From positions 124,001-188,000 of the IMG/VR virus record IMGVR_UViG_3300017917_001342: DNA of 64,000 nucleotides; one strand, 5' to 3'. The position numbers and the translations under genes were made by a program. Each line of letters begins with the position of its first letter. Within the stretch, counting starts at the first letter, position 1. The stretch is from a virus. The notes under the pieces are model-generated. The model was not told the origin of the DNA. It did not search any database and was given only the letters and a program-made list of their open reading frames with translations. Of this stretch, positions 5,437 through 29,948 are shown piece after piece.

Positions 5437-5511
5437 GCTGCCATAGCTCAGTGGTAGAGCTACTGATTAGTAATCAGTGGGTCGGGAGTTCGAATCTCTC
5501 TGGCAGCACCA
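5437..5511 (+). tRNA. tRNA-Thr(AGU)
   Basis: Acceptor GCTGCCA/TGGCAGC, A73, encoded CCA. Anticodon arm ACTGA-TTAGTAA-TCAGT. A34 would need conversion to inosine to read more than ACU. Confidence 0.9.
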
Positions 5512-5518
5512 TAATCAC

Positions 5519-5593
5519 GGGTTTGTAGCTCAACGGTAGAGCAGGTGTCTCTAAAACATCGAGGTGTGGGTTCGAATCCCATCTTACCCGCCA
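5519..5593 (+). tRNA. amber suppressor tRNA(CUA)
   Basis: The cloverleaf is complete: D-arm GCTC/GAGC, anticodon arm GGTGT-CTCTAAA-ACATC with U33 and anticodon CUA, T-arm GTGGG-TTCGAAT-CCCAT, G73, encoded CCA. The acceptor GGGTTTG/CTTACCC has two U-U mismatches. It would decode UAG. UAG still ends about six genes here (894, 3264, 6695, 22211, 42131, 53316), so it is rare as a stop, not abolished. Confidence 0.85.
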
Positions 5594-15876: not shown

Positions 15877-15905
15877 TTGACCATGCTGGCAAGAACAGCT
15901 ATGTT
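15877..15905 (+). promoter_or_regulatory. promoter of the first RNA operon
   Basis: TTGACC 15877-15882, a 17-nt spacer, TATGTT 15900-15905. Confidence 0.7.
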
Positions 15906-15911
15906 ATGTGA

Positions 15912-15943
15912 GTAAGCAAAACAGCTTACACGCTCTTTGACAA
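15912..15943 (+). promoter_or_regulatory. boxB-like hairpin and boxA, rRNA-type antitermination leader
   Basis: Hairpin GTAAGC (15912-15917)/GCTTAC (15924-15929) is followed after 2 nt by GCTCTTTGACAA, close to the rRNA boxA (GCTCTTTAACA). The same hairpin-boxA order occurs at 28834-28868. boxA recruits NusB/S10 to prevent early termination on long untranslated RNA (family knowledge). Confidence 0.8.
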
Positions 15944-15984
15944 GATAGAAAACACAATAGACTTGGTAGTGTGAGGAACACGTA

Positions 15985-16074
15985 AACCCAAGTTGCGTAA
16001 CGTGTGCTGTTACTACCGCGCGGTTCGGGATACTGTAAAGTATTACTCGTATTGCTAATTGTAGCAGCACACAC
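15985..16074 (+). ncRNA. stem-closed RNA element 1 of the operon
   Basis: GTGTGCTG (16002-16009) pairs with CAGCACAC (16065-16072); inside are ATACT-GTAA-AGTAT and a CGCGGTTCGGG segment like a T-arm. An upstream ACACG can compete for CGTGT. Confidence 0.45.
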
Positions 16075-16075
16075 T

Positions 16076-16237
16076 AAACAGAAACTGGTAGCTATAGCAT
16101 ATTGTTAATGCGCTATGATATCAGAGGAAGACAGTGTGGCGGCTGTCCAGAGCACTAGCTCTGCAAGCACAAATCAGCTAACATGTGTACTGATACTGGA
16201 GAAACCTGTCGATTCAGGTCAATGGCTGTTTCTGTTT
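16076..16237 (+). ncRNA. multibranched RNA element 2 of the operon
   Basis: AAACAGAAAC (16076-16085)/GTTTCTGTTT (16228-16237) close the element. Within it are ATAGC/GCTAT, TATCAG/CTGATA enclosing GACAG/CTGTC and CAGAGC-ACTA-GCTCTG, and a final ACCTG-TCGATT-CAGGT hairpin. The terminal helix resembles those at 17871 and 28915. Confidence 0.55.
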
Positions 16238-16473
16238 TTACTTGCAACCTGCCTATGTGGAATTGCGTGATAATCTGCTGCGTCAGGCCTGAAGGGACAA
16301 TTCCCGCGGCGCAATGGAAGAGCCACATTAGTCAAAACGTTGAGATTGTATCAAGATGCGAGTGGGTTGCAACTAAAAACAGAAAAGGCATTGACGTAGT
16401 AAATACGCGATGCTACATTAACTACGTAGACGGTAAACAGTTTACAGGTTCTTTGACAATTAGGGAATACTAA
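16183..16473 (+). CDS. doubtful ORF within the RNA operon
   Basis: 96 codons. The last 50 residues (from WKSHISQNVEIV to GSLTIREY) look protein-like, with alternating strands and normal codon choice, but there is no ribosome site and the first half overlaps the structured element 16076-16237. A shorter protein with a start near 16310 is possible. Confidence 0.3.
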   Translation: MCTDTGETCRFRSMAVSVFTCNLPMWNCVIICCVRPEGTIPAAQWKSHISQNVEIVSRCEWVATKNRKGIDVVNTRCYINYVDGKQFTGSLTIREY

Positions 16474-16576
16474 CAGTTGCGGTTGGGGCACAAGTGGTTG
16501 GCCTGAATCCATAAAACTCCTTGGGTGATGCCTGTCGGGAGCAAGCTGAGTTCGAATCTCAGACGCAACTGTTAGT
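16469..16576 (+). ncRNA. tRNA-like RNA with 13-bp perfect acceptor helix, no CCA
   Basis: ACTAACAGTTGCG (16469-16481) is the exact complement of CGCAACTGTTAGT (16564-16576). A perfect T-arm CTGAG-TTCGAAT-CTCAG lies one base inside. The D and anticodon areas do not fold canonically. Confidence 0.65.
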
Positions 16577-16584
16577 TAATAAAC

Positions 16585-16704
16585 AGCAACGCAAGTCTGT
16601 GTAATGCTAAGAGATCGGGGTTCAAATCCCCGGATTGCGGGGAAACCAGGCGAACTAGCTTAACTGGTAAAAGCGATTAGCGTAACAGGTATGCTTGCGT
16701 TGCT
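16585..16704 (+). tRNA. circularly permuted tRNA, element 1
   Basis: Arms occur in permuted order: GCTAA (16606-16610, anticodon 3' strand), 5-nt variable loop, T-arm CGGGG-TTCAAAT-CCCCG, acceptor 3' strand GATTGCG, an 8-10 nt bridge containing ACCA, acceptor 5' strand GGCGAAC, TA, D-arm GCTTAACTGGTAAAAGC, then TTAGC (16677-16681), which pairs with GCTAA. A helix CTGT/ACAG and a perfect 11-bp helix AGCAACGCAAG/CTTGCGTTGCT extend the anticodon stem. The acceptor has two mismatches. Mature ends would have to be made by joining the loop and cutting the bridge. The anticodon cannot be fixed by eye. Confidence 0.7.
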
Positions 16705-16705
16705 T

Positions 16706-16818
16706 TGATAATACAGGGTGTTGTTTGAATAACACTTGCCGGTGTCACGGGTTCGAGTCCCGTTCGGTCCATTGCGGGTCGATAGCTCAGTTGGTAGAGC
16801 ATGGTGAGAGTATCAAAC
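16706..16818 (+). tRNA. circularly permuted tRNA, element 2
   Basis: T-arm ACGGG-TTCGAGT-CCCGT (16747-16763) is followed by acceptor 3' strand TCGGTCC, A73, the bridge TTGC, acceptor 5' strand GGGTCGA (16776-16782), TA and a perfect D-arm GCTC-AGTTGGTA-GAGC. The two acceptor strands pair at all 7 positions (two G-U). TGCCG before the variable loop can pair with TGGTG after the D-arm, and GTTTGA (16723)/TCAAAC (16813) extends that helix. Without permutation these parts make no tRNA. Confidence 0.75.
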
Positions 16819-17370
16819 ATTCATCCTGTTGTAAACGACATGGGCCCGAACTAAGTATCGGATAATAAAATAAAAAGGCCATAAGCGCAGCAGCGCAACG
16901 TCTTAAGTGACCATTTGTAGCAGCCTAGGCTACACCGAGGCACATGTTAACTAGCGCAGGGTGACGAACCCGTAAGACGCAAGAATATTGGTACTGCTAC
17001 TTGAAATGCAGCTAAGTCGCTCGAATACGAGAGTAGAGCCACACGCAGGAGGGTCCAACTGAAAGAGAAGGCGCTACCAAGTACACCATCAACTAAGTTG
17101 AATGTTTGTGCGACTTTAGGTAGAGATGCTACCCAGCAGAGTTTGCAAATCTAATGAGCTCGCACTGAAATTGGAATACGGTGTTAAAAGTTGCAATACT
17201 GATTCAAACGTATTAGTATACCCATCTTAATACGTTGGTGTTAATGGCTTGTGGGTAACGGTAACTTAACTTAGCAATAGGTTAGACGCGGAGGGACTAT
17301 CAGCGAAAGCTTGCATACCCATAGATGTGATGCCGGGCTGGCAGGGAGGAATGAGACTCCCACTTTGATA
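16807..17370 (+). ncRNA. large ornate RNA 1
   Basis: CAAACATTCA (16814-16823) is the exact complement of TGAATGTTTG (17099-17108) 275 nt away. Further helices include GTGCGA/TCGCAC (17108/17160), GGTAG/CTACC, ACGTATTA/TAATACGT (17209/17228), CTATCA/TGATAG (17297/17365), TGCC/GGCA, GGGAG/CTCCC, and AGC-GAAA-GCT. No ORF of note. It includes copy 2 of the motif at 245-311 (16991-17044). Density of hairpins and GNRA loops suggests a compact folded RNA. Confidence 0.6.
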
Positions 17371-17376
17371 GATTTT

Positions 17377-17453
17377 GGGGGATTAGCTCAATTGGTTAGA
17401 GCGCCGGACTCATAATCCGTAGGTTGCTGGTTCGAGTCCTGCATTCCCTACCA
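17377..17453 (+). tRNA. tRNA-Met or tRNA-Ile2 (CAU)
   Basis: Acceptor GGGGGAT/ATTCCCT (two G-U), A73, encoded CCA. Anticodon loop CTCATAA gives CAU. With three CAU genes in the window, this or 18890 may be the lysidine-type isoleucine tRNA; the sequence alone does not decide it. Confidence 0.85.
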
Positions 17454-17765: not shown

Positions 17766-17868
17766 AACTGATATGCATCTCCTCCTTCCCCGCTAGCTAG
17801 GACGGGTTGGTTGTAGATCTGATGCTGATCGAATGGTTCGAATCCTGGGAGAGCACTGCATATCAGTT
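17766..17868 (+). ncRNA. tRNA-like RNA with 12-bp perfect outer helix
   Basis: AACTGATATGCA (17766-17777)/TGCATATCAGTT (17857-17868) are exact complements. Next inside, TCTCC/GGGAGA forms an acceptor-like helix and TGG-TTCGAAT-CCT a weak T-arm. No CCA. Confidence 0.55.
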
Positions 17869-17870
17869 TA

Positions 17871-17994
17871 AATTCTGTTTTCACATGTACTATGTTCTGG
17901 GAACACTTTAACCAGGGTTAGAGTGCTGGGTTCGATTCCCGGGCGGGTTAAATGGGGGTTCGAGTCCCTCAGTAGTACAGTTGAAAGCAGAATT
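17871..17994 (+). ncRNA. tRNA-like cloverleaf with a nested second T-arm
   Basis: The outer helix 17871-17892/17973-17994 has about 20 of 22 pairs (AATTCTG-TTTTCA... with ...TGAAA-GCAGAATT). Inside are a D-arm-like GTTC-TGG-GAAC, an anticodon-position stem TTTAACC/GGGTTAAA that holds another hairpin CTGGG-TTCGATT-CCCGG, and a normal T-arm GGGGG-TTCGAGT-CCCTC. No CCA follows the acceptor. Confidence 0.6.
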
Positions 17995-17997
17995 TGC

Positions 17998-18153
17998 AAT
18001 TCGGTTTCTACCTGCATTAGACAGTGTAAAGGTGCATATACTTTGGGCGAACGTAGTAAGATAGGATGAAGTACAAGTCCCGTATCTGCTAGTAGTTTTT
18101 GGACAAGGTGGGGCCAGTTCGAATCTGGCACTGATGCAGTTAGAAACAGAATT
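17998..18153 (+). ncRNA. tRNA-like RNA, 20-bp outer helix
   Basis: AATTCGGTTTCTACCTGCAT (17998-18017) pairs with 18134-18153 at 18 of 20 positions, continuing into TAG/CTG. T-arm GCCAG-TTCGAAT-CTGGC (18113-18129) is perfect. The centre includes GTCC/GGAC around a long loop. No CCA. It ends 3 nt before the initiator-like tRNA. Confidence 0.6.
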
Positions 18154-18155
18154 TT

Positions 18156-18234
18156 TGCGGGGTAGAGAAGTCTGGTCGTTCTCGCCGGGCTCATAACTCG
18201 GAGATCAGTGGTTCAAATCCACTCCCCGCAACCA
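18156..18234 (+). tRNA. initiator-type tRNA-Met(CAU)
   Basis: Anticodon arm CGGG-CTCATAA-CTCG, with the G-rich stem of initiators, and the 3' part GGTTCAAATCC...CCCCGCAACCA. Position 1 is T and pairs with A72; bacterial initiators normally have an unpaired C1-A72, which matters for formylation. Confidence 0.85.
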
Positions 18235-19690: not shown

Positions 19691-19735
19691 TTACACATAT
19701 ATCAAGTATAATTACTTGTAAAATATAGTGTGATA

Positions 19736-20971
19736 ATGGATCAATTTTTTCAAAAAACTGTAGGTAGCAATTTTGCATGCGGCTATAAATGGGCATGGAG
19801 TACCATACGGTTACAGACTAGAACAACAAATAGTTGTCATAGAACCGATCAAGACATTATCACACCAGAAACATTTGATTCATTTCATAACACACCAATT
19901 AAATTGCAAACTCGCAAAGCCATGTTAAATGGACAATGGCCGGGTCACGGTTGCGAGTACTGTAAACACATAGAAGATTCTGGTGGCATCAGTGATCGCA
20001 TGTATGCTAATGAACATATACACAACGCTTACATACCTCATGAACTAATAACTAATCCAAAATCGTTAAAAACTACACCCACTATGGTTGAGGTGTATTT
20101 TAGTAATCTTTGCAATATGAGTTGCATTTACTGTAATGAATCATTTAGCACAGTTTGGGAACAAGAAAAACTCAAACACAACGAGCCGATTGCATCTAAT
20201 TTACTGTCGATTAGTTCTGTCGATTACAAAAAAATGACAGACGCATTTTTTACTTGGTTAGATAAAAATATCTATTCGATATTTGAGCTAAACATTTTGG
20301 GCGGCGAACCATTCTTTCAACCAGAACTTGATAGAATGTTAGCATTTATAGAAACGCACCCAAATCCAGATCTAACACTTAAAATATTTTCTAACTTAAA
20401 AGTTCCTACACAAAAGTTTTCTACTATTCTACGTAAATTAGATAGTTTTATCGAATGTAATATAGTCAAACAAGTTGAAATAATAACCAGTATAGACTGT
20501 TGGGGGCCGGAACAAGAATACATACGTACAGGAATTTCTCTTCGTCAATGGGAAGAGAATTTTTCGTACATGGTAAAAAATCATCAAAATATTAACATAC
20601 GAACCCACGGTACCATCACCTGTCTTACCATTAAGACTATATATGGCTTAATTGAAAAAATTAACTTTTACAATAGTTTCAGATCTAACTCTGAGATAAT
20701 TTATTCGTCCGATTTGCTAGTAGAACCAGAGTTCTTACAGTCGGGTATATTCCCATCGGGTTTTTTCGACGATGATTTTGCTGCTATTTTACAAATAGTA
20801 CAAGAAGATTATACAAAAGAGAAAATAACCAATCATTGGTTATCTGTAAACAATCATCAGTATAAACCAGAACTTATTTCAAAACTAAAAGCATTTTTAA
20901 CAACACTTGATATCAGACGCAACACCAACTGGAAATCTACATTTAAATGGCTAGATGAGTTTCAAGTGTAA
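19736..20971 (+). CDS. radical SAM protein, twitch type (paralogue 1)
   Basis: 411 residues. CNMSCIYC (126-133) is the CX3CX2C motif that holds the radical [4Fe-4S] cluster, and ILGGEPFF the SAM-binding GGE motif. An N-terminal Cys-rich part (HRTDQD, GHGCEYCKHIEDSGGISDR) could hold a second cluster. The short barrel fits twitch-domain radical SAM proteins, reported in marine phages with unknown substrates. The start 19736 ATG is used, not GTG 19730. First of three tandem paralogues with 2- and 1-nt gaps. Confidence 0.82.
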   Translation: MDQFFQKTVGSNFACGYKWAWSTIRLQTRTTNSCHRTDQDIITPETFDSFHNTPIKLQTRKAMLNGQWPGHGCEYCKHIEDSGGISDRMYANEHIHNAYIPHELITNPKSLKTTPTMVEVYFSNLCNMSCIYCNESFSTVWEQEKLKHNEPIASNLLSISSVDYKKMTDAFFTWLDKNIYSIFELNILGGEPFFQPELDRMLAFIETHPNPDLTLKIFSNLKVPTQKFSTILRKLDSFIECNIVKQVEIITSIDCWGPEQEYIRTGISLRQWEENFSYMVKNHQNINIRTHGTITCLTIKTIYGLIEKINFYNSFRSNSEIIYSSDLLVEPEFLQSGIFPSGFFDDDFAAILQIVQEDYTKEKITNHWLSVNNHQYKPELISKLKAFLTTLDIRRNTNWKSTFKWLDEFQV

Positions 20972-20973
20972 AC

Positions 20974-22209
20974 ATGGAAAATATGTTTGAAAAATTAACA
21001 GGTTATCGTGCCGGATGTGCAGCTAAATGGAATTGGAGCACAGTTTTTTTAAACCAAGGCACAACTGCTAGCTGCCACAGAACCGATACTGATACTGTAG
21101 ATCATATATCTATACACAATTTTCATAATACCCCGCTAAAGTTGAAAACACGTCAACTGATGCAGCAAGGACAATGGCCAGGGCATGGGTGTGAGTATTG
21201 TAAACATATAGAAAACTCCGGTGGTATCAGCGACAGAATGAATTCAAATTCTCTGTTTAATGGCAAAAAGATTCCGCACGAATTGCTTGTTAATACAGAT
21301 GCAATACACACAACGCCCACGGTACTAGAAATAAATTTTACCAATTTATGTAACATGAGTTGTATATATTGCAGCGAAGGATGGAGTTCTGTATGGGAAC
21401 AGGAAAATATCAAATTCAATGATCGCATTGAACAAGCCCCTAGACTATTAAAAGGCGCAGAGTACGAAAGAATCCTGTTTGAATTCTTTCAATGGTTAGA
21501 CACAAACGTCGAACATTTGTCAGACCTACACATATTAGGTGGGGAACCATTTATTATGCCAGAATTTGACAAAACCGTCGAGTTTCTAAAAACACGCAAG
21601 TTGCCAGATTTGAATTTGGTAGTAATTACCAATTTGAAAATAACCAGAGACAAGCTAACTCAACACCTGTCGGTATTGAATTCGCTATTAGACAACAATG
21701 CCATTGGATCTGTAAGAATAGTTGCTAGTTTAGATTGTTGGGGACCGGAACAAGAGTATATACGTACTGGATTGTCCTTGCAGCAATGGGAAGACAACTT
21801 TGCATTTATAGTAAAAAACTATCGTAACATAGACATCAATGTACACAGTACAATCACAGGTCTTTCTATAAAGACCACCGACAGTTTAATAGACAAAATC
21901 AACTATTACAGGACATTGCTAGATAACAATAAAAACATTATTCATTCTAAGAATTTTGTTACAGGCTTTAGTTACTTGAGTCCAAAAATTTACCCTTATG
22001 GTTTTTTTGATAGCGATTTTGAAAAAATATTGACCAAAATAACTGATAGTTATGAGCTAGAAGAAATGAAAGGCTATAAATTATCAATTGATAACGAGCC
22101 ATATAACCCAGCTCTAATAGAAGATTTAAAACGATATCTAGATAAATTGGATTTTAGAAGAAACACAAATTGGCGTAACTATTTTTCATGGTTAGACGAG
22201 TTTAATTAA
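20974..22209 (+). CDS. radical SAM protein, twitch type (paralogue 2)
   Basis: 411 residues, colinear with its neighbours: CNMSCIYC near 126, LGGEPF near 190, SLDCWGPEQEYIRTG near 260 and the N-terminal GCEYCKHIENSGGISDR. All cluster residues are present, so it should be active. The C-terminus FRRNTNWRNYFSWLDEF is shared by all three. Expressed with paralogue 1 by translational coupling (2-nt gap). Confidence 0.82.
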   Translation: MENMFEKLTGYRAGCAAKWNWSTVFLNQGTTASCHRTDTDTVDHISIHNFHNTPLKLKTRQLMQQGQWPGHGCEYCKHIENSGGISDRMNSNSLFNGKKIPHELLVNTDAIHTTPTVLEINFTNLCNMSCIYCSEGWSSVWEQENIKFNDRIEQAPRLLKGAEYERILFEFFQWLDTNVEHLSDLHILGGEPFIMPEFDKTVEFLKTRKLPDLNLVVITNLKITRDKLTQHLSVLNSLLDNNAIGSVRIVASLDCWGPEQEYIRTGLSLQQWEDNFAFIVKNYRNIDINVHSTITGLSIKTTDSLIDKINYYRTLLDNNKNIIHSKNFVTGFSYLSPKIYPYGFFDSDFEKILTKITDSYELEEMKGYKLSIDNEPYNPALIEDLKRYLDKLDFRRNTNWRNYFSWLDEFN

Positions 22210-22210
22210 A

Positions 22211-23461
22211 ATGGAAGATCAGTTTTCAAAACTCACCAATGGAAAATTTGGATGTGGTTACAAATGGGCATGGAGCACAATTTTTTTACAGCAAGGGTCT
22301 AGCTCTAGTTGTCATCGTACTATGCAGGACTTTTTTGATGAACAAACTGTGCAACAGTTTCATAACTCTCCATTGAAGCTGCAAAGTCGTAAAGCCATGT
22401 TAGATGGTCAATGGCCGGGGCATGGTTGTGAATACTGCAAAAATATAGAGGCTGCTGGCGGTATTAGTGATAGACAACAAATAAACAAAAAATTTCAAGG
22501 TCTTATTGTACCTAAAGAACTGTTAACTGATTCTACTGCAATCAATGTATCGCCTACTATGATTGAATTGCATTTTAGTAATTTGTGTAATATGAGTTGC
22601 ATATATTGTAACCAACGATTCAGTTCGGTATGGGAACAAGAAAATTTAAAGCACGGCAACATATTTGCAGATACCGAATTTCTATTAAATCACAGTGCAA
22701 CCGGTCGTATGATAGATTCATTTTTTGATTGGCTGCACTACAATATAGGCAATTTAGTTAAAATTAACATACTTGGTGGTGAACCATTTTATCAATCTGA
22801 GTTTTATAGATTTATAGATTTCTTAGCCGAGCATCCAAATCCAAATTTAGACATTACTGTGTTTTCTAATTTAAAAGTTAATGAAAATAAATTTTCATCG
22901 GCATTGAAACGATTAGAAACTTTTGTAAAATCCAACATTGTCAAAAGTGTAGAAATAGTTGCTAGTTTAGATTGTTGGGGACCTGAACAAGAATACGTTA
23001 GAACTGGGCTGTCTTTACAACAATGGGAAGATAATTTTGCACTGTTGGTAAACAATTTTCAAGATATTGAAGTACAAATTCATGGCACAATATCAAGTTT
23101 GACTATTAAAACTATCCCAGATCTACTCAACAAGATTAATTTTTACAATAGTATGCGTAGTAAACACCCAATAAGTTACTCTAATAACATACTAGTGCAT
23201 CCAAATTGCTTACAACCTGGTATATTTCCTTTGGGGTTTTTTGATGATGATTTCAACAAAATACTGCCTCTTATACAAAATCAAGCAGAACACGATGAAA
23301 TGCAAGGCTATTTCAAAACCATTAACAATACAGACTACAATCCTCAATTGATAATTGAATTGAAACAATACCTAGACACGTTGGATATCAGACGACACAC
23401 AAATTGGAAAACAGTGTTTCCATGGTTAGATCAGTTCGATGTTGACAAACATCACAGTTAG
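22211..23461 (+). CDS. radical SAM protein, twitch type (paralogue 3)
   Basis: 416 residues with the same motifs (CNMSCIYC, ILGGEPFY, SLDCWGPEQEYVRTG). Starts 1 nt after paralogue 2. It ends with TAG directly followed by TGA, so amber suppression would not extend it. The three differ over most of their length, suggesting old duplication and distinct substrates. No obvious precursor peptide gene lies next to the set. Confidence 0.82.
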   Translation: MEDQFSKLTNGKFGCGYKWAWSTIFLQQGSSSSCHRTMQDFFDEQTVQQFHNSPLKLQSRKAMLDGQWPGHGCEYCKNIEAAGGISDRQQINKKFQGLIVPKELLTDSTAINVSPTMIELHFSNLCNMSCIYCNQRFSSVWEQENLKHGNIFADTEFLLNHSATGRMIDSFFDWLHYNIGNLVKINILGGEPFYQSEFYRFIDFLAEHPNPNLDITVFSNLKVNENKFSSALKRLETFVKSNIVKSVEIVASLDCWGPEQEYVRTGLSLQQWEDNFALLVNNFQDIEVQIHGTISSLTIKTIPDLLNKINFYNSMRSKHPISYSNNILVHPNCLQPGIFPLGFFDDDFNKILPLIQNQAEHDEMQGYFKTINNTDYNPQLIIELKQYLDTLDIRRHTNWKTVFPWLDQFDVDKHHS

Positions 23462-27129: not shown

Positions 27130-28251
27130 ATGGAAAACACTGATAAAGATTTTTATTGTGCAGCACCGTTTGTGAATAGATCGTACGATCCAAACGGTAA
27201 AGTTAAACCTTGTTGCGAATGGCACAACTTAGATACAACTGTCGACGATGAACAACAGTTGATTTCTCTACGATCTCAATTTTTACAAAACAAACCAAAT
27301 CCCTGTTGTAAAGTCTGTCATAAAACAGAAGCTGCTGGGGTACAATCTACTAGAAATGATTTTAACAACAGGTACGGTAGACCAACTGTACCTGTGCTGC
27401 GTCATTTGGATCTAAGTCTAGGCAATCTATGTAATTTCAAATGTAGAATGTGCAGCAGTTTTTTTAGCACAAAATGGGCCAGTGACGAACAAGCATTGGG
27501 ATTGATTCCACACAAGTTGTACAGACGTACCTGGGATGAATTGAAACATTTAGACATATCAAATGTAGATATGATCAAGTTCAAAGGTGGCGAGCCTTTT
27601 CTAGAACAAGAAACAATGATCAATACCCTAACTGCAATCTTATCTCAAAAAGGCTCGTTAGAAAATATTACAGTTGTTGTAAACACAAATGGATCTATAG
27701 AAATAGAACCAAGATTGATAGAGTTGTTGTCTCTTTGCAAAACTGTTAACTTAACAGTTAGTATAGATGGATACGGTAAAGTAAACGAATATCAACGCAC
27801 AGGCGCAGTATGGAATGTAATAGAAAAAAATCTATTAGATTTTCAAAAAAATCTCAACAATAACTTTGACTTATCTATATGGTCTGTGTGGACTATACTC
27901 AACATTACTAACTTAAAAACACTGTTAGGCTGGGTTACAACCAACTTGCCTAGATACAAAATCTATGGTACTACGCTGCATTTTCCAGAAGAGTTTGCTA
28001 TACGCAATATACCAGACCAACTAAAAACGCAATTTTTTAATGACATTAGCAATTGGTGTGAACTCGATCACAACGACGGTGTGCTAGAAAACAAATTACA
28101 GATTTTAAATGAGTTACAACAACAGCCTATAAAAACGATCAACGAAGTTAAATCTTACATAGATAGCCTTGACAAAGTTAGAAATGAGTCGTTTTCTTTA
28201 ATAGATCCTGTGATGTATGCGGCATTTTTTGAATCAACTGTTGACATATGA
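27130..28251 (+). CDS. radical SAM protein, twitch type (separate subfamily)
   Basis: 373 residues. CNFKCRMC (101-108) and FKGGEPFL are the cluster and SAM motifs; an N-terminal CAAPF...KVKPCCEW and CCKVCHKTEAAG resemble the two-cluster (SPASM-like) region. It is distinct from the three paralogues at 19.7-23.5 kb in motif wording and length. No strong ribosome site. Substrate unknown. Confidence 0.82.
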   Translation: MENTDKDFYCAAPFVNRSYDPNGKVKPCCEWHNLDTTVDDEQQLISLRSQFLQNKPNPCCKVCHKTEAAGVQSTRNDFNNRYGRPTVPVLRHLDLSLGNLCNFKCRMCSSFFSTKWASDEQALGLIPHKLYRRTWDELKHLDISNVDMIKFKGGEPFLEQETMINTLTAILSQKGSLENITVVVNTNGSIEIEPRLIELLSLCKTVNLTVSIDGYGKVNEYQRTGAVWNVIEKNLLDFQKNLNNNFDLSIWSVWTILNITNLKTLLGWVTTNLPRYKIYGTTLHFPEEFAIRNIPDQLKTQFFNDISNWCELDHNDGVLENKLQILNELQQQPIKTINEVKSYIDSLDKVRNESFSLIDPVMYAAFFESTVDI

Positions 28252-28700: not shown

Positions 28701-28729
28701 TTGACAACGTTCAAGTAACACACTATATT
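28701..28729 (+). promoter_or_regulatory. promoter before a hairpin RNA
   Basis: TTGACA 28701-28706, 17-nt spacer, TATATT 28724-28729. Confidence 0.7.
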
Positions 28730-28798: not shown

Positions 28799-28827
28799 TT
28801 GACACGCTGTACGTAAGGTGTTAAAGT
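28799..28827 (+). promoter_or_regulatory. promoter of the second RNA operon
   Basis: TTGACA 28799-28804, 17-nt spacer, TAAAGT 28822-28827. Confidence 0.7.
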
Positions 28828-28833
28828 AACTGA

Positions 28834-28868
28834 GTAAACAACAAAACGGTTTACATGCTCTTTAAAAA
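28834..28868 (+). promoter_or_regulatory. boxB-like hairpin and boxA, rRNA-type leader
   Basis: GTAAAC (28834-28839)/GTTTAC (28849-28854), then GCTCTTTAAAAA (28857-28868). Same order and spacing as at 15912-15943. Confidence 0.75.
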
Positions 28869-28914
28869 TTTACATGTGGTCCTAGCGCAAGCGATAATGG
28901 ACAAGAAGCGAAAG

Positions 28915-29036
28915 TTTCTGTTTACACATATTGTAACTGCTTTAGGTAATAGCATTTCGGTAATGCGCACTTGCTTAATCGAGTGAGATACGGTTCGAGT
29001 CCGCACCAAGCAAATTACAATAGCTGTAAACAGAAA
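28915..29036 (+). ncRNA. tRNA-like RNA with two-part outer helix, no CCA
   Basis: TTTCTGTTTAC (28915-28925)/GTAAACAGAAA (29026-29036), then ATTGTAA/TTACAAT and TGCTT/AAGCA. Inside are GCATT/AATGC, CACTTG-CTTAAT-CGAGTG and a T-arm around TTCGAGT. The centre could present UAA but the loop is 6 or 8 nt. Confidence 0.6.
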
Positions 29037-29079
29037 TTGCACGATATTAACGTTGTGAAACGTGGATGTTGTGTTTACG

Positions 29080-29921
29080 CATTGGGGGTTTAGCCTCAAC
29101 AGGATAAGTGCAGTGATGCACCCAAAGCTAGAAAGCCTACATACTAGCGCCAGCAGTGGTCCATCTAAACAAGCCTGAACTAGACTTGACTCGGGTTAAA
29201 CCGAAAGCAAGTCCCGTCCGTAGAAAGGCGGTAGGCAGTAAGTTAGGAATAGTGTCCGAAAGGATAGTTGCAGAGCCAGTCGGTGAGCGATAAGAGGGTT
29301 GGCGCCCAAACACTGTTCAGCCAAACTAACGAATGCTGAAAGTTAACAGGTAGGTACAGAGTCTGAGCCCGCAAGCAAAGGCATGGTACCATTTCGAGAG
29401 TGGAAGGGTTAGGCCCCGGATACTTGAAGAAACACTGATTAGTCCGCAAGACGAAAGGTATGAGGTGTGCTGTATTGGGTATGTCAAAAGCATATTCAGC
29501 AGCCGAGGTAGCACATCTCGGATAGGTTGCAAAATCAGCTAATGGTAAGCTAATTCCCTTCTAAGGAATCGATTGCAGGTTCAACTCCTGTTTTTGAAAA
29601 ATGCAAAGTCTACCTCGGTATGTAGTGTAAGGTGTCAAATACTTGAGGCGCAAGCCAATCAAGTTCAACAAAGCTCGCAAGGCAGCGTTGATTTGTGCTA
29701 GAAGTTTCGTAGCCCGCAAGGCTTAATGGTCCGCAAGATCAACGGAAAACAAGGTGCAGAATAGCTACATACGACGAGTCTACTGCCTGACTCTAAAAAC
29801 GGCGACACTGTTAATGGACTAGGTTACCGCAAGGGACTTAGTGGATGTCGGAAGAAAGCGGCTCGCAAGGCTGGCAATAATGTCCGAAGCGTTAACATCG
29901 AACGTGTAATCTCAGCGTTTG
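29080..29921 (+). ncRNA. large ornate RNA 2, GOLLD-like
   Basis: About 840 nt without an ORF, full of GNRA-capped hairpins (many GCAA loops such as CCCGCAAGC, CTCGCAAGG, CCGCAAGA). A tRNA-like domain sits inside a 9-bp helix CCGAGGTAG (29503-29511)/CTACCTCGG (29610-29618). Size, phage context, neighbouring tRNAs and an internal tRNA match the GOLLD RNA class described from bacterial and phage genomes. I identify it by these features, not by alignment. It starts after an rRNA-type leader and ends at a terminator. Confidence 0.6.
29528..29599 (+). tRNA. tRNA-Arg(UCU)-like domain inside the ornate RNA
   Basis: Acceptor TGCAAAA/TTTTGAA (6 of 7), D-arm AGCT/AGCT, anticodon arm ATTCC-CTTCTAA-GGAAT giving UCU, a 5-nt variable loop and T-arm GCAGG-TTCAACT-CCTGT. 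No CCA is encoded. Confidence 0.75.
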
Positions 29922-29926
29922 TTTTA

Positions 29927-29948
29927 AAAAGGTCCTTCGGGACCTTTT
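29927..29948 (+). terminator. terminator of the ornate RNA operon
   Basis: AAAAGGTCC-TTCG-GGACCTTTT followed by CT; UUCG tetraloop. Confidence 0.8.

Follow-up and report, generated by a model that had tools for sequence, protein, structure and literature searches.

The rrn operons of E. coli carry boxB, boxA and boxC just after promoter P2, and their transcripts form long leader-trailer helices that are closed and processed (PMC10250234). The boxA element, for which the published gamma-proteobacterial consensus is GYTCTTTAANA (PMC5725501), is necessary and sufficient for assembly of the rrn antitermination complex (PMC10250234). NusB and S10 bind boxA, and the assembled complex is resistant to Rho and helps the RNA to fold (PMC6614801). 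Control by Nus factors through boxA is usually seen as a system of rRNA operons and lambdoid nut sites, to which CRISPR arrays and some 5' UTRs have been added recently. boxA works before non-ribosomal transcripts and recruits SuhB outside rRNA (PMC4807359), and a boxA before a long CRISPR array raises array RNA approximately 10-fold (PMC7862264). A survey of boxA targets published in 2017 states that non-coding RNAs were outside its scope (PMC5725501). Here, leaders of promoter, hairpin and boxA are described in front of non-coding RNA units of a phage and compared with those of other phages.

Leaders in the phage window

The window is the whole stretch of DNA that was analysed, 64,000 nucleotides (64 kb) of a 518,643-bp phage record. 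The initial annotation had placed a consensus promoter, a hairpin and a boxA, in that order, at 15877 and again at 28799, as leaders of two non-coding operons. Both leaders were recovered in this order (Table 1). The promoters are sigma70-like, with 9 (site 1) and 10 (site 2) of the 12 consensus bases matched, and the term consensus was thus somewhat generous for site 1. Unit 1 is really two units (1a and 1b), since a further promoter, hairpin and boxA are present at 16391-16459. Besides this leader, the initial annotation had missed a leader 1.8 kb upstream of the window, the second promoter of unit 2, the identity of unit 2 as GOLLD RNA, and a helix behind boxA.

Table 1. Leader elements and non-coding RNA features, in window coordinates.
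Feature	Positions	Strand	Details	Basis
Unit 1a promoter, sigma70-type	15877-15905	+	TTGACC-17-TATGTT	Promoter motif scan, sequence
Unit 1a boxB-like hairpin	15912-15929	+	GTAAGC-aaaaca-GCTTAC	Sequence, fold, covariation across phages
Unit 1a boxA	15932-15943	+	GCTCTTTGACAA; 2-nt spacer after hairpin	Motif search
Unit 1a structured non-coding RNA	15912-16390	+		Fold, ORF check
Unit 1b promoter	16391-16419	+	TTGACG-17-TACATT, TG-extended	Promoter motif scan
Unit 1b boxB-like hairpin	16433-16445	+	GTAAA-cag-TTTAC, then AG spacer	Sequence
Unit 1b boxA	16448-16459	+	GTTCTTTGACAA	Motif search
Unit 1b structured non-coding RNA	16460-17376	+	Helix-closed modules with tRNA-like T-arms; leads to tRNA-Met	
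tRNA-Met (cat)	17377-17453	+		tRNA and Rfam searches
Three helix-closed T-arm modules in a row	17766-18153	+	17766-17868, 17871-17994, 17998-18153; then tRNA-Met at 18156	
Unit 2 upstream promoter	28701-28729	+	TTGACA-17-TATATT	Promoter motif scan
Unit 2 downstream promoter	28799-28827	+	TTGACA-17-TAAAGT	Promoter motif scan
Unit 2 boxB-like hairpin	28834-28854	+	GTAAAC-aacaaaacg-GTTTAC	Sequence, covariation across phages
Unit 2 boxA	28857-28868	+	GCTCTTTAAAAA; 2-nt spacer after hairpin	Motif search
Domain closed by conserved post-boxA helix	28913-29038	+	Contains T-arm; arms 28913-28936 / 29015-29038, 2x2 CA/GC internal loop	
GOLLD RNA 5' domain	29050-29461	+	Kept in at least 8 other phage loci, 70-86% identity	
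GOLLD RNA 3' domain, RF02032	29462-29918	+	234.1 bits vs gathering 150	
tRNA-Arg (tct) in GOLLD linker	29527-29600	+		tRNA search
Terminator-like hairpin, end of unit 2	29927-29948	+	AAAAGGTCC-TTCG-GGACCTTTT	Sequence, fold

The boxA 12-mer GCTCTTTRAMAA occurs three times in the whole record, always on the + strand. Two copies are in the window, at 15932 and 28857, and the third, at record position 122175, belongs to the leader outside it. All three copies head tRNA or non-coding RNA units, each behind a promoter and a hairpin. At record position 122175 the promoter reads TTGACA-17-TAAGTT, and the hairpin behind it, which differs in sequence (GTTAGC-agtt-GCTAAC), is separated from boxA by 2 nt. 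The chance expectation for the 12-mer was 0.12 per 64-kb window, and 1 of 100 shuffles reached two copies. In 50 other phage records, picked via an unrelated protein, six copies were found (approximately 1 per Mb), compared with three for the reversed control.

The boxA of unit 2 matches the gamma-proteobacterial consensus exactly. Units 1a and 1b and the leader outside the window differ from it only at position 8 (A to G), and G occupies this position in most phage leaders. Some rrn boxA sequences from outside the gamma-proteobacteria may also have G at position 8. The hairpin of site 1 yielded a folding z-score of -2.43. That of site 2 is weak alone, the minimum free energy fold of an isolated 58-nt piece favouring another pairing (z of -0.13); folding energy was therefore not counted as evidence there, and the case for this hairpin is made by covariation across phages.

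Conservation across phages

Leaders were collected through three mutually independent selections: a promoter and boxA scan, GOLLD sequence alone, and the post-boxA helix alone. Promoter, boxA and ATTT were found together in at least 120 stretches of viral contigs, as opposed to 8 for the reversed boxA. Among the promoter-boxA matches listed, 60 of 129 had a tRNA within 1.5 kb downstream on the same strand; the corresponding count was 0 on the opposite strand and 0 of 8 for the reversed controls. The scan also recovered enterobacterial rrn leaders (promoter, hairpin, AC(T), GCTCTTTAACAATTT). The likeness to rrn leaders put forward in the initial annotation is borne out by this comparison, as boxB-boxA order, promoter-proximal position and 2-nt spacing match the enterobacterial rrn P2 leader from the same scan.

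When GOLLD loci were chosen regardless of boxA, 15 of the 22 independent ones had hairpin and boxA within 700 nt upstream, compared with 1 of 22 on the opposite strand and 0 of 22 and 1 of 22 for the reversed motif. Two of the remaining seven loci carry recognisable degenerate forms, while five begin straight at the promoter without boxA. Similarly, when post-boxA helices were picked without boxA, 16 of 19 proved to have a boxA no more than 250 nt upstream, whereas both controls gave 0 of 19; each of the 19 loci sits among same-strand tRNAs. A sigma70-type promoter lies 40-75 nt upstream of boxA in 39 of 46 leaders; most of these had been searched for with a TTGAC box in the pattern, but those selected through GOLLD had not. 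In the closest relative (NAMPT protein 86% identical), the contig contains boxA versions GCTCTTTATAAA and GCTCTTTGAAAC, both preceded by the same kind of hairpin arms. Conservation of boxA in related phages had been named as a test of the initial proposal, and the proposal withstood it: hairpin and boxA are conserved before GOLLD and before tRNA and non-coding RNA arrays in many independent lineages. No match to the GOLLD region or to three other leader and RNA queries was found among INPHARED annotated phages, and no relatives were found via a 411-aa neighbour protein. A bacterial genome scan for the exact hairpin-boxA pattern gave three matches, with no rRNA or other Rfam family nearby and hence no clue to the host.

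Order and spacing of promoter, hairpin and boxA are conserved, both hairpins covary, and the leader is linked with non-coding arrays. Of 50 dissimilar leaders, 31 have a hairpin with 5 or more Watson-Crick pairs whose 3' end is 0-3 nt from boxA; chimeras joining 5' and 3' halves gave a mean of 5.4 and a maximum of 13. Where a simple hairpin is missing, some leaders show, by eye, a longer stem with internal mismatches, and many of the hairpins are capped by GNRA-like tetraloops (gaaa, gaga, gcaa). A new element, a covarying helix shortly 3' of boxA, closes an RNA domain. This helix is comprised of approximately 10 bp, a 2x2 CA/GY internal loop, and approximately 7 bp, and usually starts 13-108 nt after boxA; the enclosed domain varies between phages and often holds a T-arm. 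Across 32 distinct helices, 99.3% of cells were paired, a percentage that leans upwards because the helices were collected by requiring most pairs, with the range of pair types unaffected. Both sides had changed in 15 of 17 pairs, and slid controls collapsed.

Not every phage tRNA array has the leader, and the leader is not confined to RNA genes. In the first 50 kb of T5, which includes the tRNA region, no boxA was found at the tRNA and stable-RNA promoters, and the single exact boxA is located in the pre-early operon; the first 50 kb of ICP1 contains no exact boxA. Related Vibrio and Salmonella phages have hairpin and boxA before coding genes. Hairpin-AC-boxA is found in the pre-early region of T5-like phages, upstream of coding genes (T5 AY543070 position 4988, - strand; STWB21, L272:2033, 2516; Vibrio phage VspSw_1, L263:4115). 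The pre-early boxA of T5-like phages provides a culturable test case with a laboratory host.

RNAs behind the leaders

The units were initially described as untranslated structured RNA, and this description is supported. Their longest + strand ORFs are 45-56 aa, not longer than in shuffles, and folding z-scores are -4.66 (15912-16400) and -3.44 (16425-17376). No rRNA was found in the 64-kb window, where the cargo behind the leaders is GOLLD, tRNAs and other RNAs. Unit 1a has a closing helix (16229-16249 / 16365-16385), and its 3' domain (approximately 16233-16387) shares 78% identity over 157 nt with a locus of another phage (L123), in which the copy sits directly behind a boxA leader. T-arm modules of unit 1b are located at 16469-16576, 16585-16704, and 16722-16822. 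By covariance model, unit 2 is GOLLD RNA (RF02032), full length (positions 1-416) and above the gathering threshold, while no Rfam match was found for the helix-closed element at 28913-29038.

Helix-closed T-arm modules with a CTGTTTTCA-CA-TG / CA-GY-TGAAAACAG stem recur in phage tRNA arrays (window 17766-18153, L002, L003, L005, L007, L111, and others), and the middle module of the window (17871-17994) has the conserved CTGTTTTCA-CA-TG / CA-GT-TGAAA motif. The window copies checked had no Rfam match, and the modules may represent a new class of RNA, similar in type to T5 RNAI, RNA1, and RNA2. A reading of the T-arm modules as YrlA / Y RNA (RF02553) was rejected, with 44.8 bits at 16722-16822 against a gathering threshold of 69. 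A second sub-threshold match reached 27.6 bits (16586-16706), tRNA-tRNA junctions elsewhere scored 21-26 bits against the same model, and no Ro60/TROVE protein was found in the phage or among 23 phage records searched.

Several further features were observed. A 46-kb phage contig contains four tandem boxA-headed short structured RNAs (L006:13300-14000, - strand), at least three of the four with an apparent closing helix behind boxA; these are candidate Nus-factor sponges. By eye, a GIY-YIG-like ORF (L008:1500-2740) and an HNH-like ORF (L003:10500-10560) interrupt or abut tRNA genes at the anticodon region. The array in the window also contains a tRNA-Thr (AGT; 5437-5511) and, at 5519-5593, a possible amber suppressor that was called as tRNA-Pyl (CTA). 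The window further encodes three consecutive radical-SAM domain proteins of similar length (19730-23461), a fourth just before the GOLLD unit (27130-28251), and a skipping-rope RNA (RF02924; 39057-39173) at 46.9 bits, above threshold.

Proposed function and comparison with known systems

The leaders are probably (roughly 0.75) rrn-type leaders for antitermination and folding, dependent on host Nus factors and reused by phages. Points that weigh against this reading are the G at boxA position 8 in three of the four leaders, the five GOLLD loci that lack boxA, its absence from the T5 tRNA and stable-RNA promoters, and its presence before coding genes in related Vibrio and Salmonella phages. The use of rRNA-type transcription control by the phage, as initially suggested, is supported at the level of sequence by the conserved order and spacing and by hairpin and boxA ahead of non-coding RNA arrays. 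The same leader in many unrelated phages suggests that phages borrow the host rRNA transcription machinery for their own non-coding RNAs. For the phage leaders we infer Nus binding, antitermination and assistance in folding. Transcription of each unit would begin at a sigma70 promoter of host type, with predicted starts up to approximately 10 nt before the hairpin (near 15911 and 28833). The boxB-like hairpin and then boxA, the NusB/S10 binding sequence, would take up the initial 35-45 nt of RNA. Host NusB-S10 together with NusA, NusG, and SuhB would assemble on boxA and travel with RNA polymerase through the untranslated array; no NusB or S10 genes are encoded in the phage, so host factors would be needed. 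The complex would block Rho and keep the 5' end close to the exit channel, and long-range helices, first the covarying post-boxA helix, would close while the RNA emerges. Processing would then release the tRNAs, T-arm modules and GOLLD RNA. Since rRNA in E. coli for the most part withstands Rho when Nus factors are missing (PMC4807359), the main benefit may not lie in antitermination, and co-transcriptional folding help may matter as much.

Tentatively, and at odds somewhat below even, many huge phages could carry 'pseudo-rrn' units, in which a promoter, boxB and boxA are followed by a covarying leader-trailer-like helix around a non-coding RNA domain. The host rRNA antitermination complex would then serve beyond Rho, in co-transcriptional folding and processing of giant RNAs, for example the GOLLD nanocage with its tRNA arrays. 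If phage arrays of tRNAs and giant RNAs recurrently bear an rrn-style leader, this would supply a production route for puzzling RNAs and would suggest that these RNAs are made like rRNA. ROOL, a comparable giant RNA, attains 16S-like abundance (PMC12286853). Furthermore, with phage leaders one could test directly if the rrn complex helps large RNAs in general to fold, and the leader is a sequence handle to find new phage RNA units.

Abundant boxA-headed phage RNAs might instead be decoys that titrate NusB/S10 and weaken host rRNA synthesis, with antitermination of the arrays secondary. High-level lambda nutL RNA does titrate Nus factors and lower rRNA expression (PMC4807359), and the four tandem RNAs of L006 are too short to need antitermination. 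However, where readable, the leaders mostly head long tRNA arrays or GOLLD and not free-standing short RNAs, and a single boxA per transcript is a weak sponge, so that a decoy function appears unlikely. It is quite improbable that boxA only assists a boxB hairpin recognised by an N-like protein of the phage, a kind of protein that is short and divergent. The GNRA-like tetraloops of many hairpins are such as an N-binding boxB might have. Against this, the hairpin precedes boxA, the opposite of lambda nut sites (PMC6614801), and stem and loop vary among leaders of one genome (aaaaca, aacaaaacg, agtt, cag), a variation that speaks against an N-like reader with sequence specificity.

The post-boxA helix, approximately two turns with an internal loop, resembles RNase III processing stems and closely co-occurs with boxA, as it would if the conserved block were a 5' processing or stability element (an RNase III-type stem and a single-stranded boxA-like tract) with no Nus link; this explanation is very improbable, as it leaves unexplained both a tract that agrees with the rrn boxA consensus over 12 nt and lies where rrn leaders have it, and the boxA before coding genes. 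Chance matches in AT-rich DNA, despite the two copies together in 1% of shuffles, have a negligible probability and are refuted by the record-wide, promoter-boxA, tRNA, GOLLD, hairpin and helix tests with controls.

As probable rrn-type leaders, the phage elements can be set beside several known systems. No report of boxA before phage GOLLD or tRNA arrays was found in full-text literature that includes few subscription papers or preprints. In the boxA before bacterial CRISPR arrays (Stringer et al., cited in PMC7862264), boxA likewise heads a long untranslated array and is thought to keep polymerase going; those are host immune arrays, for which the text consulted describes no hairpin-boxA-helix architecture. 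Lambda nut sites (boxA-boxB) share phage use of boxA and, as predicted here, of host Nus factors, whereas they have the opposite element order, are N-dependent, and drive protein-coding early operons. Identity with a lambda nut site was rejected, as boxA comes after the hairpin both in this phage and in its relatives. The T5 stable RNAs (RNAI, RNAIII, RNA1, RNA2, RNA2H, RNAX) are annotated among the phage tRNA genes as stable and in part tRNA-like, with no function assigned, and share T-arm sequences and 5' hairpins, but have promoters without boxA. With GOLLD RNA (RF02032), unit 2 shares a full-length match, a tRNA in the linker, and a location near tRNA genes.

The bacterial rrn leader (boxB-boxA-boxC; rrnTAC with NusA/B/E/G, SuhB, and S4) shares with the phage leaders a promoter-proximal hairpin, a 2-3 nt spacer and boxA, and with the phage units a long helix after boxA closing non-coding RNA, sometimes tandem promoters, and tRNAs in the transcript. 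No exact copy of rrn boxC, which lies 18-19 nt after boxA and pairs with the trailer, was found by eye in the phage leaders; the covarying helix follows boxA instead. In contrast to bacterial rrn, the phage leaders precede GOLLD, T-arm RNAs and tRNA arrays and not rRNA, G is common at boxA position 8, and the helix encloses fewer than 200 nt as opposed to the whole 16S rRNA.
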